Virus record (IMG/VR): IMGVR_UViG_3300044980_000067
Location: 1-29,627 of that record
Origin: a virus
DNA: 29,627 nt
Reading direction: 5' to 3' (one strand)
Below are positions 4,095 to 22,227 of this stretch, in pieces. Below the pieces are notes generated by a model, which did no database searches, was not told where the DNA came from, and saw only the letters and a list, made by a program, of their open reading frames with translations. Position 1 is the stretch's first letter; each line of letters opens with the position of its first letter. The translations under genes and the position numbers were made by a program.

Positions 4095-4442
4095 TTAAAT
4101 ATTACTATGTGGCAACTTCAATAACTCTATACCGACTTGTGGAGTCCCTGTTGATATAAAACTTAATACATCTCCACCTTTAACATATCTTGCATTGTCA
4201 CATGGATTAATACGCCATTGATTATAAGTGGTCGTAGATGTATTAGAAGTAGGTACTGCCGCAGTACCATTATTACTAACCCAAACATCCGCACTTGACG
4301 ATACAGAAAATGCAGCGCGATAAACTTGGTTTGGCAACCCTGGAACTGTATAAGCTAACGCCGTACTAGCAGCTAACAGCATCATTACGCCAGCATCACT
4401 CACTGGAAAAGTTTTCTCATACTGAGAATTAAAAATTGTCAT
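4095..4442 (-). CDS. Small beta-rich virion-type protein (115 aa)
   Basis: ATG with ribosome site TTAGGAGTTAGTT. The product is rich in Ser, Thr, Val and Asn, lacks charged clusters and is predicted mostly beta-stranded. It contains SADVWVSNNGTAA and ends in QVGIELLKL. It sits ten bases before the large fibre gene and ten after the 713-residue fibre gene, so it is part of the tail module: a small fibre-tip, chaperone-like or attachment protein. No family recognised. Confidence 0.65.
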   Translation of the reverse strand: MTIFNSQYEKTFPVSDAGVMMLLAASTALAYTVPGLPNQVYRAAFSVSSSADVWVSNNGTAAVPTSNTSTTTYNQWRINPCDNARYVKGGDVLSFISTGTPQVGIELLKLPHSNI

Positions 4443-9714: not shown

Positions 9715-11561
9715 TAGTTAGCACCTCCACTAACATTCTTAATCATCATTACACCACCTAATACAGTAATTGGCACCGGACTTACCGCAACCAACTTATA
9801 AACTCTATTTCTTGAAGTCCCCAACTGATACCAACGCATACGCCATTGATAAACACCGCCATCACTAAACTGTCTTTCATCAGCGGAATAAAATGAAATG
9901 CCACCATCATCAGATACATATAATTCAATAGATGGTTTAAACAATGAGTTATAAGTTAATTCATTTAATGAAGGTGTATTGCCTTGCTCTGTCACCATGA
10001 AAATAGGCTGTCCATCAGCATCAGGTTGCTCTGCAATTATATACTGAGGACTGCCATCGGCAGCTGGTTGCTCATCAATAATGAATTTAGTGTTAGTAAA
10101 TGGCGCTAATGAGAAATTGATATTGCTATCACCAAATACAAAATCAATTTCAACATATTGGGTTTCAAATTCTGCATAATTATCTTCAGATATAATAGGC
10201 GTAATTCGCTCATACCTAAACGGCTCTTGAAGATAAGCGCTAACATCTTGAGGACTGACTGCATCAGGATTGGTTATTTCGTTAAAATAAAACTGACCAC
10301 CCATTTGATAAACTGTATTGTCACCTTGCAGCGTTACTAAATGCTGAGTATTAAAATAAATATGACGCTGAATTCTATTTCGTTCCCCATTAAGTTCTAT
10401 TACTCGATGCCATGTTTTGGTATCAAAGTTATATTCAATACTGTTTGCAGCTTGTTCTTGATCTAATATCGGATTACCTTTATAAACACCACCTGATAAT
10501 CGATAGAAAATAGTATTTTCATATTGATAAATAAATCCTACTGCATTACCTGACAAGAATGGGCTATTAGTTCCAAAAACATTAGTATATCCCTGAAATA
10601 GCACATCAATTGCTTTCTGTGAGTCAGAACTAGCAGGAATAGGATAATCACCTGTACTTATCATAACTTGCAATAAACCATCATTATTCTGCGCTAGAAA
10701 CATCATAAATCCAAAACCAACATCTAATGATAGTGGATCAGCCATACCAAAATCCCAACTATAAGTGGTAGACTTCTTCCACGGAAAATACGCACCCGAT
10801 CCTGAAAATACCGCTGGAATATTAGCCCAAACACCTGTCGTGTAATCCGTAAAAATGTATAGACGATTGTTCAATACAGCCATTTGACCAATGACACCAT
10901 CTTCCTGAGCAAATACAGCAGTTCCAGCAATTGTAAAACAAGTAGCAGCATTAAATGCTGAACCACCAAGATTAATTTGAGAAAGAAAAAACTGCGAACT
11001 ACCAGCAACAGAAACTGTAATTCTATTACCAAATGCGGCAATATATCCTGGTTTTGTTAAAACACCATCAACTGTAACATTTCCAGGAGCATTCGGATCG
11101 GTGACAATAGAGAAAGTTCCTCCAGGATTTGCTGTTGTTGGCTCCTGGTAAATGTAAATCTTCTGAGTATCAACAAAACAAACAAATACAAGTGAGTTAA
11201 CAACTAAATAAGTAAAAAATACATTTCCAGCCAATGAAAGCAAACTTCCAATATCGACTTGATTATAATTAGCATCAATACGATAAACAGTACTTCCAAC
11301 AACAGAATACCAATACTTAATTGAATCAAAATGTCCGCGAGGCTCACCTGGAAATATTAATACATTGTTACCAAGATAAGATATGTGTGAACGACCCATC
11401 GCTGGATACATAGCCAAAGGACGCTTCGTTCCTACATTTCCTTTTTGAATAGGCCAGTTAGCATTATCCTCTGGCGACCATTGCGGAAAACGTTGACGAT
11501 TGTACTGTCCAATAATAGGAAGTGGTGCAATGTCAAAGTCATTTTCAGAAAATTTAGCCAT
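9714..11561 (-). CDS. Packaged-DNA stabilisation / tail hub protein, P22 gp10-like (615 aa)
   Basis: Features of the gp10 hub family: an N-terminal LPIIGQYNRQRFPQWSPEDN segment, KPGYIAAFGNRITVSVAGSS, FDTKTWHRV in the middle, and a C-terminal RMRWYQLGTSRNRVYKLVAV. In P22 the hub plugs the portal channel below gp4 and carries the needle. The ATG at 11561 (MAKFSEN) is preferred because GGAAAAG lies before it; ATG 11579 and TTG 11588 have no ribosome site. This start lies inside the end of the HNH gene (8-base overlap), so the homing gene was placed very close to the hub's start. Confidence 0.75.
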   Translation of the reverse strand: MAKFSENDFDIAPLPIIGQYNRQRFPQWSPEDNANWPIQKGNVGTKRPLAMYPAMGRSHISYLGNNVLIFPGEPRGHFDSIKYWYSVVGSTVYRIDANYNQVDIGSLLSLAGNVFFTYLVVNSLVFVCFVDTQKIYIYQEPTTANPGGTFSIVTDPNAPGNVTVDGVLTKPGYIAAFGNRITVSVAGSSQFFLSQINLGGSAFNAATCFTIAGTAVFAQEDGVIGQMAVLNNRLYIFTDYTTGVWANIPAVFSGSGAYFPWKKSTTYSWDFGMADPLSLDVGFGFMMFLAQNNDGLLQVMISTGDYPIPASSDSQKAIDVLFQGYTNVFGTNSPFLSGNAVGFIYQYENTIFYRLSGGVYKGNPILDQEQAANSIEYNFDTKTWHRVIELNGERNRIQRHIYFNTQHLVTLQGDNTVYQMGGQFYFNEITNPDAVSPQDVSAYLQEPFRYERITPIISEDNYAEFETQYVEIDFVFGDSNINFSLAPFTNTKFIIDEQPAADGSPQYIIAEQPDADGQPIFMVTEQGNTPSLNELTYNSLFKPSIELYVSDDGGISFYSADERQFSDGGVYQWRMRWYQLGTSRNRVYKLVAVSPVPITVLGGVMMIKNVSGGAN

Positions 11562-12330
11562 TACTTTTCCAAATTTCATTGTTAACAACTAACTGAATCG
11601 TTTTTCTGCAAACATTATACTTATTCATCAGATCAGAAACCTTCATATTAACTCTATCTTTCCTTATCTGATTAGCCATTTCCATAGACAACTTAACGTT
11701 TTTTCTATTTCTTGAGTTTTCAGTGATAGTCACCCAACGACAATTAGACGGCATATATCCTTTAGTGCCATCAATTCGATCTATCGTCAAACTATCCATA
11801 TAACCATTCCTTATTGACCACTCGCAAAATGAATCTGCTTTTTTTAACCATTCATTACAAACTGTAATTCCTTTAGCTCCATAAATTTTATAACCCGCAA
11901 AAAACTTATTGTAACATCTCTCTTTCATACCTTTGTAAATACAAATTAGTCGAGGATGAGACATCCTATAACTACATTTGAATTTCTTCCTCCTTAAACA
12001 TCCACAACTTTTACGTAAAATTAAAGTTCGTGGAATAACCTTATAATGACGATTGCATATTTTACATTCTGCAATTGCCCATCTTTTCCCATTACTGCAC
12101 CCCAAATCTCTAATAATATTAAAACCATTAATATTATTTGAAAGAGGCTTAAGTTGTGGATCATAACAACCGCAACTTTGCATTCTTTTCAAACGGTAAA
12201 GATTCACTCTAAATCTTTTTCCGCATAACTTACATCTAGCAATCCCAGGCCTATCATTGCCCATTCTTCCAAAATCTTTAATTATTTTGAAATCATTTAT
12301 TTCTACCGAAGCATTCCACTGTTTTTTCAT
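11554..12330 (-). CDS. HNH homing endonuclease with two zinc ribbons (258 aa)
   Basis: ATG with GAGGGTATTGT upstream. Two similar N-terminal repeats each hold a C-x2-C...C-x-C set (C33, C36, C53, C55; C89, C92, C109, C111), fitting paired zinc-binding DNA-contact modules. The nuclease part follows: RLICIYKGMKERCYN, YGAKGITVCNEW, then LTIDRIDGTKGYMPSNCRW (about 181-199), the core of the phage HNH family. The end (LSMEMANQIRKDRVNMKVSD) looks like a helix-turn-helix DNA-recognition repeat. It is freestanding between two conserved virion genes, the usual home of mobile homing genes. It would cut alleles that lack the insertion. Confidence 0.88.
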   Translation of the reverse strand: MKKQWNASVEINDFKIIKDFGRMGNDRPGIARCKLCGKRFRVNLYRLKRMQSCGCYDPQLKPLSNNINGFNIIRDLGCSNGKRWAIAECKICNRHYKVIPRTLILRKSCGCLRRKKFKCSYRMSHPRLICIYKGMKERCYNKFFAGYKIYGAKGITVCNEWLKKADSFCEWSIRNGYMDSLTIDRIDGTKGYMPSNCRWVTITENSRNRKNVKLSMEMANQIRKDRVNMKVSDLMNKYNVCRKTIQLVVNNEIWKSNG

Positions 12331-21459: not shown

Positions 21460-22227
21460 CTAATAGTTTATCAGTATTGACTTGATAAGTGCAAACATTG
21501 GAAACACAACTTGCGGTACAATTGCATTACCAAGCGCTTTTATTCTATTTCTGTCCAGTTTATCGGAAATCCCATCATCTTTTCACATAATGCTGGCGTT
21601 ATATTCGAGCCAGTCTCCAGCTTGCATAATCTTCCAAGCGTTAGGGATGAGTTTTTGCCATTGCGATTGTATTTCCTCCAAGTTCCACTCTTGGTTTTCT
21701 TGTAAATATCGTCTTTTCCAATAACGCTTCCCGATGTCGCCTCCGATGCTGTTACGGTGGGCAATAATCCATAACCGCTCGCGTCTGTGAGGCGCGCCTG
21801 AGGCACACGCTGGAATAAGATATGATTGGGTGCAATAACCCTCACTCTCCAAATCATCGAGAATGGAAGCAAGCGCCAATTCGACCATGCCAGGAACATT
21901 TTCTGAAATAATCCACCCAGGCCGACATTCTTTGACAACTCGGAATAATTCTGGCCATAGATATCTCTCATCATTTTTTCCCTTTTTCTTTCCTGCTGAA
22001 CTGAATGGCTGACATGGCATGCTAGCTGTTAATATATCGACACTATTTGTATATTTAAAATCATGAATATCATTGCTAATGAAAACATCTGGCCAATGCT
22101 TATTTAAAACCTTTTGACAAAATTTATCTTTCTCACAAAATGCTATCGTCTTAAATCCAGCCCATCTTGCAGCTAAAGCAAATCCACCAATCCCCGAGAA
22201 TAAATCAAGATGAGTTAACTCTCTCAC
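21460..22227 (-). pseudogene. Cytosine-5 DNA methyltransferase with in-frame TGA (214 + 40 codons)
   Basis: GTG start sharing a base with the TerL stop. Motifs in order: DLFSGIGGF (8-16, SAM binding), PCQPFSSAG (71-79, catalytic Cys72), SENVPGM (109-114, ENV), GAPHRRERLWIIAH (144-157). Codon 215 is TGA; beyond it the same frame continues for 40 codons with KDDGISDKLDRNRIKALGN and AIVPQVV, the family's last motif (X), then stops at TAG. TGA most simply comes from a CGA Arg codon. The +1 frame across the same DNA (to 21540) also reads as a methyltransferase-like end. The truncated 214-residue product lacks motif X and is probably inactive unless TGA is read through. Intact, it would methylate cytosine against host restriction. 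Confidence 0.75.

Follow-up and report, generated by a model that had tools for sequence, protein, structure and literature searches.

The locus analysed here is a C5-cytosine methyltransferase gene on the minus strand of a virus record (IMG/VR record IMGVR_UViG_3300044980_000067; its full stretch of 29,627 nucleotides is henceforth called the window), in which an in-frame stop separates the catalytic motifs from motif X and within which a second gene is read in the +1 frame. The two genes are referred to as alpha and beta. The alpha frame runs from 22227 to 21460, its GTG start shares one base with the terminase stop, and its single internal stop is the TGA at 21585-21583 (codon 215), ahead of the terminator TAG (21462-21460). 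The features of the locus are as follows.

21583..22227, minus strand: alpha as it stands, i.e., motifs I-VIII, 214 amino acids, GTG start, ending at the TGA (open reading frame and PF00145 match)
21583..21585, minus strand: in-frame TGA that interrupts alpha; the T doubles as the last base of the beta Cys codon TGT (21587-21585), and the GA opens the beta Glu codon GAA (21584-21582)
21460..21582, minus strand: alpha frame past the TGA, 40 codons including motif X (ALGNAIVPQ), to the TAG (translation, relatives, AlphaFold)
21540..21974, minus strand: beta, nested +1-frame gene of 144 amino acids (GLLPTVTAS...MMGFPINWTEIE), ATG start, TAA stop (open reading frame, +1-frame matches, PHROG 1008)
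21980..21984, minus strand: AAGGG, candidate ribosome-binding site 5 nucleotides upstream of the beta ATG (sequence)
22021..22023, minus strand: alpha codon 69, AGC (Ser), in motif IV; Gly in 150 of 151 aligned relatives (alignment)

Motifs I, IV (PCQ), VI (ENV) and VIII (HRRERLW) were found in the alpha frame, followed by the TGA and then by ALGNAIVPQ, i.e., motif X; the TGA itself falls after HRRERLWIIA of motif VIII and before DDGISDKLDRNRIKALGNAIVPQ. The Pfam model PF00145 matched alpha residues 5-167 (E 4.9e-43), which identifies the catalytic motifs as those of a C5-cytosine methyltransferase, HhaI and HaeIII ranked top in the fold comparison, and PHROG 363 matched residues 2-251. The initial annotation had described a methyltransferase frame interrupted by a single TGA with motif X intact beyond it, and both statements were confirmed: there is exactly one internal stop, and the motif X past it aligns with motif X of intact relatives. 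Translated alpha, as it stands, ends at the TGA and lacks motif X, which is encoded beyond the stop. The added claim that all codons were preserved was correct only in part, as Ser replaces the motif IV Gly two residues before PCQ and both neighbouring codons differ too. In an AlphaFold model of alpha computed with the TGA read as Trp (mean predicted local distance difference test score (pLDDT) 79.6), the catalytic core was confident, a linker at residues ~162-209 was mostly disordered where alpha overlaps the part of beta that resembles a target-recognition domain (TRD), and two confident helices (222-233 and 238-254) contained motif X. A stop at codon 215 thus removes the motif X helices. 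Reinitiation past the TGA was ruled out, since the alpha frame has no ATG ahead of motif X.

Beta is the second long minus-strand open reading frame of the locus and reads ...GYGLLPTVTASEATSGS...LCEKMMGFPINWTEIE. Its matches in phage records stood at +1 to the frame of the methyltransferase matches within those same records, and it matched PHROG 1008; this PHROG and PHROG 363 are both named DNA methyltransferase and are kept as separate families. The initial annotation missed beta. The alpha codons that lead from motif VIII to the TGA are neither a recognition domain nor motif IX but a linker that overlaps the +1 gene (21974-21540), and from motif VIII to motif X the DNA codes in two frames; that first reading was misled because the alpha linker resembles a normal coding frame. 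The TRD-like and MGFP motifs sit in beta, and the end of beta resembles motif IX. As beta occupies the place of the target-recognition part and motif IX, and alpha is devoid of them, beta is probably the subunit that provides both. Its ATG with the AAGGG upstream, together with its conservation, suggests that it is made as a separate protein. In the window and in a related contig (L041, see below), the beta ATG lies ~70 codons ahead of LPT, with an AAGG-type sequence upstream of it.

The same arrangement was found across relatives. Among loci with a match to the N-terminal part of alpha (phages and bacteria), 182 of 203 belonged to the nested +1 class. After redundancy removal, 140 nested loci had alpha open through motif X, and only the window and one relative (L179) were stopped before it; in L179, a TGA stands directly ahead of motif X, at a site other than that of the window. 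In a motif scan of the fetched relatives, LPTP and MG[FY]P lay almost always in the frame at +1 to that of motifs I, IV and X. The reverse search, from the beta profile, covered two phyla with 299 genomes each plus three named genomes, and the +1 relation held in all 25 non-redundant loci that also had alpha. Among the 25, seven were without detectable motif X, and several matched the N-terminal half of beta only; some weak matches limited to that half may mirror conserved codons of alpha. The nested loci (>140 non-redundant) span phages, Bacillota, Pseudomonadota and Bacteroidota.

Both frames are under constraint in these relatives. When the alpha protein was held fixed and synonymous codons were resampled, the +1 frame stayed open with a median probability of <0.001, and when beta was held fixed, alpha stayed open over the TRD part with a median probability of 0.005 (143 loci; as these loci are mutually related, the probabilities are not to be multiplied). 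Conservation of the +1 frame exceeded the resampled expectation with z 56 after motif IV and z 5 before it. The third frame was also raised (z 30), as expected under constraint on synonymous sites. Alpha and beta are hence nested and dual-coding. A decayed single-frame gene with a pair of compensating frameshifts was ruled out, because relatives share the +1 relation and keep both frames open.

Variations on this layout were seen in individual relatives. In two of them (L039, 1336-1954; L003, 798-972), several LPTP or WPTP modules follow one another in tandem in beta, as if there were multiple recognition segments. Alpha of L005 has an insertion in its N-terminal part, ahead of motif IV, whose +1 frame contains a segment resembling LPTPQASD (~4129-4250). 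A methyltransferase on a Dolichospermum plasmid (L266, 698-1510) has its +1 frame open across all 270 codons and is a probable cyanobacterial nested case.

The position of the stop follows from the overlap. The conserved beta Glu (GAA or GAG) before MMGFP imposes an NGA codon on alpha, and its N is supplied by the last base of the beta codon just ahead; a T there stops alpha. C, A or G occupied N in each of the 120 other loci that could be scored, with ~24 T expected in 121 from codon use (independence of the loci is approximate, and 39 loci fell outside the search pattern). The stop is thus avoided in relatives. In the window, the preceding beta Cys is written TGT and the alpha codon becomes TGA, while the same position reads TGC in beta and CGA in alpha in L002, and GGA in alpha in L041 and L005. 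The C-to-T deamination suggested in the initial annotation would start from CGA, the codon of L002; with GGA in L041 and L005, C is an uncertain ancestral base. The change to T left the beta protein unaltered if the ancestral beta codon encoded Cys, as that of L002 does. L002 is the closest sequence relative of the window beta; its own alpha has an apparent frameshift near codon 45 (~4117-4150) in an A/T-rich homopolymer stretch, which is either an error or a second natural break.

For the age of the stop, the closest phages were compared. Three IMG/VR contigs (L041-L043) with a terminase 99% identical to that of the window carry intact alpha and beta at the same locus. Their methyltransferase allele is ~73% identical in nucleotides to the window over 700 bp, i.e., at 21460-22227 a divergent allele stands between conserved terminase and portal genes, which suggests allele exchange at this locus between near-identical phages. 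In the part that encodes alpha only, substitutions in the window lineage were neither more numerous nor more often amino-acid-changing than those in the L041 lineage. A broad decay of the window gene was therefore unsupported in alpha, although beta of the window deviates at 8 of 22 conserved columns, the highest value in the range (L041 beta deviates at 4). An exact-match search of IMG/VR across the TGA returned no related record that spans the stop. A nonsense change that is recent and private, or else a base error, is the most likely origin of the TGA. The idea in the initial annotation that the change is recent was in this way supported: relatives, including the three contigs, do not all end at this TGA but continue to motif X, and alpha is not accelerated.

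We propose, with a probability of about two in three, that the locus encodes a nested two-gene C5-cytosine methyltransferase whose alpha was cut in the window by a recent or private single-base change that is silent in beta. Alpha would supply motifs I-VIII plus, in intact members, motif X, and beta, read in the +1 frame from an ATG internal to alpha, would most likely supply motif IX along with the part for target recognition; alpha and beta would come together as one enzyme, presumably a heterodimer as in M.EcoHK31I. In the window, one base change would have turned the alpha codon over the conserved beta Glu into TGA, and ordinary termination there would leave an alpha of 214 amino acids without the motif X helices. 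With these helices lost, the window enzyme is probably inactive or weakened.

Several results weigh against this proposal. Beta had no match in Pfam, NCBIfam or PDB, by sequence or by fold, and was accordingly rejected as a known fold; its structure model was weak (predicted template modelling score (pTM) 0.29). The beta profile failed to align with the TRD and motif IX of five plasmid enzymes, and splicing beta into alpha in silico did not lengthen the PF00145 match. As Pfam, NCBIfam, PDB, fold and chimera comparisons gave no support, the role of beta is read from its position and from the parts that alpha is missing. In addition, the truncated alpha might keep some activity.

Of the alternatives, one is that the TGA reflects an error of sequencing or assembly, or a variant present in a minority, and that the phage alpha is really open to motif X. 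Such an error is consistent with a 29,627-base virus record for which no related record spans the TGA, with the normal evolution of the remainder of alpha, and with the strong avoidance of a stop at this codon in the family. We nevertheless consider it unlikely, as alpha of the window carries a second unique change, the motif IV Gly to Ser replacement with both neighbouring codons changed, so that a single base error cannot account for everything unusual in this gene.

It is also conceivable that motif X is dispensable in a two-part enzyme and that the truncated alpha still works with beta. Fragments of M.SssI complement each other in many combinations (PMC3404938), and one shortened M.EcoHK31I fragment (which end was shortened is unstated) kept targeted activity (PMC3439449). 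Against these precedents stand the 140 non-redundant relatives that keep alpha open through motif X and the avoidance of T at this codon, which make continued activity improbable.

The constant geometry of the overlap at motif VIII across the family would also fit a single gene in which a programmed +1 frameshift follows motif VIII, giving a fused protein of motifs I-VIII and TRD rather than two products with separate starts. This we regard as very improbable, given the beta ATG well ahead of LPT with its AAGG-type upstream sequence in the window and L041, and the conservation of the upstream half of beta far above the expectation based on alpha.

Concerning read-through, this phage uses TGA as an ordinary stop: the codon ends 12 of the 31 tabulated open reading frames of the window, and the large genes are open without TGA read-through. 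Reassignment or suppression of TGA was ruled out on this usage, with a suppressor possible in the host, outside the window. A UGA followed by A can be leaky, and motif X past the stop is well conserved, but that host suppression or programmed recoding yields a little full-length alpha, as the initial annotation had offered, is scarcely credible and went unsupported, with TGA as the usual stop, no tRNA gene found in the window, RNA downstream of the stop that folds no better than shuffled sequence (z +0.68), a stop avoided at this codon in the family, and the sole other relative stopped before motif X (L179) interrupted at a different site.

Elsewhere in the window, an open reading frame at 11554-12330 overlaps its tail-gene neighbour and looks by eye like an HNH homing endonuclease.

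The stop is of modest interest, and the conserved nested architecture is of more. Bacteria and their phages seldom have long same-strand overlaps in which both products are conserved, and the annotations encountered often give only one of the two genes. Whether alpha and beta stand for a widespread family of C5 methyltransferases in phages and bacteria that has largely escaped recognition, built of two genes nested in different frames such that the specificity subunit is overprinted on the catalytic subunit, we consider evenly balanced. If so, specificity and catalysis would share codons, and members would be one silent beta mutation away from truncation of alpha, with the window as a natural example, i.e., a clean case of a change silent in one protein that truncates the other.

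Among known systems, M.EcoHK31I is closest in description. Its small-subunit gene lies within the gene for the large subunit, in a different frame. M.EcoHK31I is a natural two-polypeptide C5 methyltransferase of E. coli (YGGCCR), described as a large subunit with motifs I-VIII and X and a small subunit with motif IX (PMC3404938). In intact relatives of the window, alpha likewise carries motifs I-VIII and X, and beta has an end that resembles motif IX. The same paper places the predicted TRD of M.EcoHK31I in its large subunit (PMC3404938), whereas the TRD-like part lies in beta here, and the window alpha differs further in having lost motif X. M.AquI (CYCGRG) is likewise a two-subunit C5 methyltransferase split after motif VIII (PMC3404938); its small subunit holds IX and X, whereas X is in the alpha frame here. 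The alpha and beta pair is already catalogued as two phage families, PHROG 363 and PHROG 1008, in entries that, as returned, do not mention the shared DNA of the two genes. ORF40 of Lactobacillus phage Lc-Nu has the same +1 nesting, with alpha intact and the nested gene unannotated. In Paenibacillus phage Lily, g62 and g63 are nested in the same +1 relation, g63 being annotated as “g62 internal gene,” and alpha is intact, unlike that of the window.
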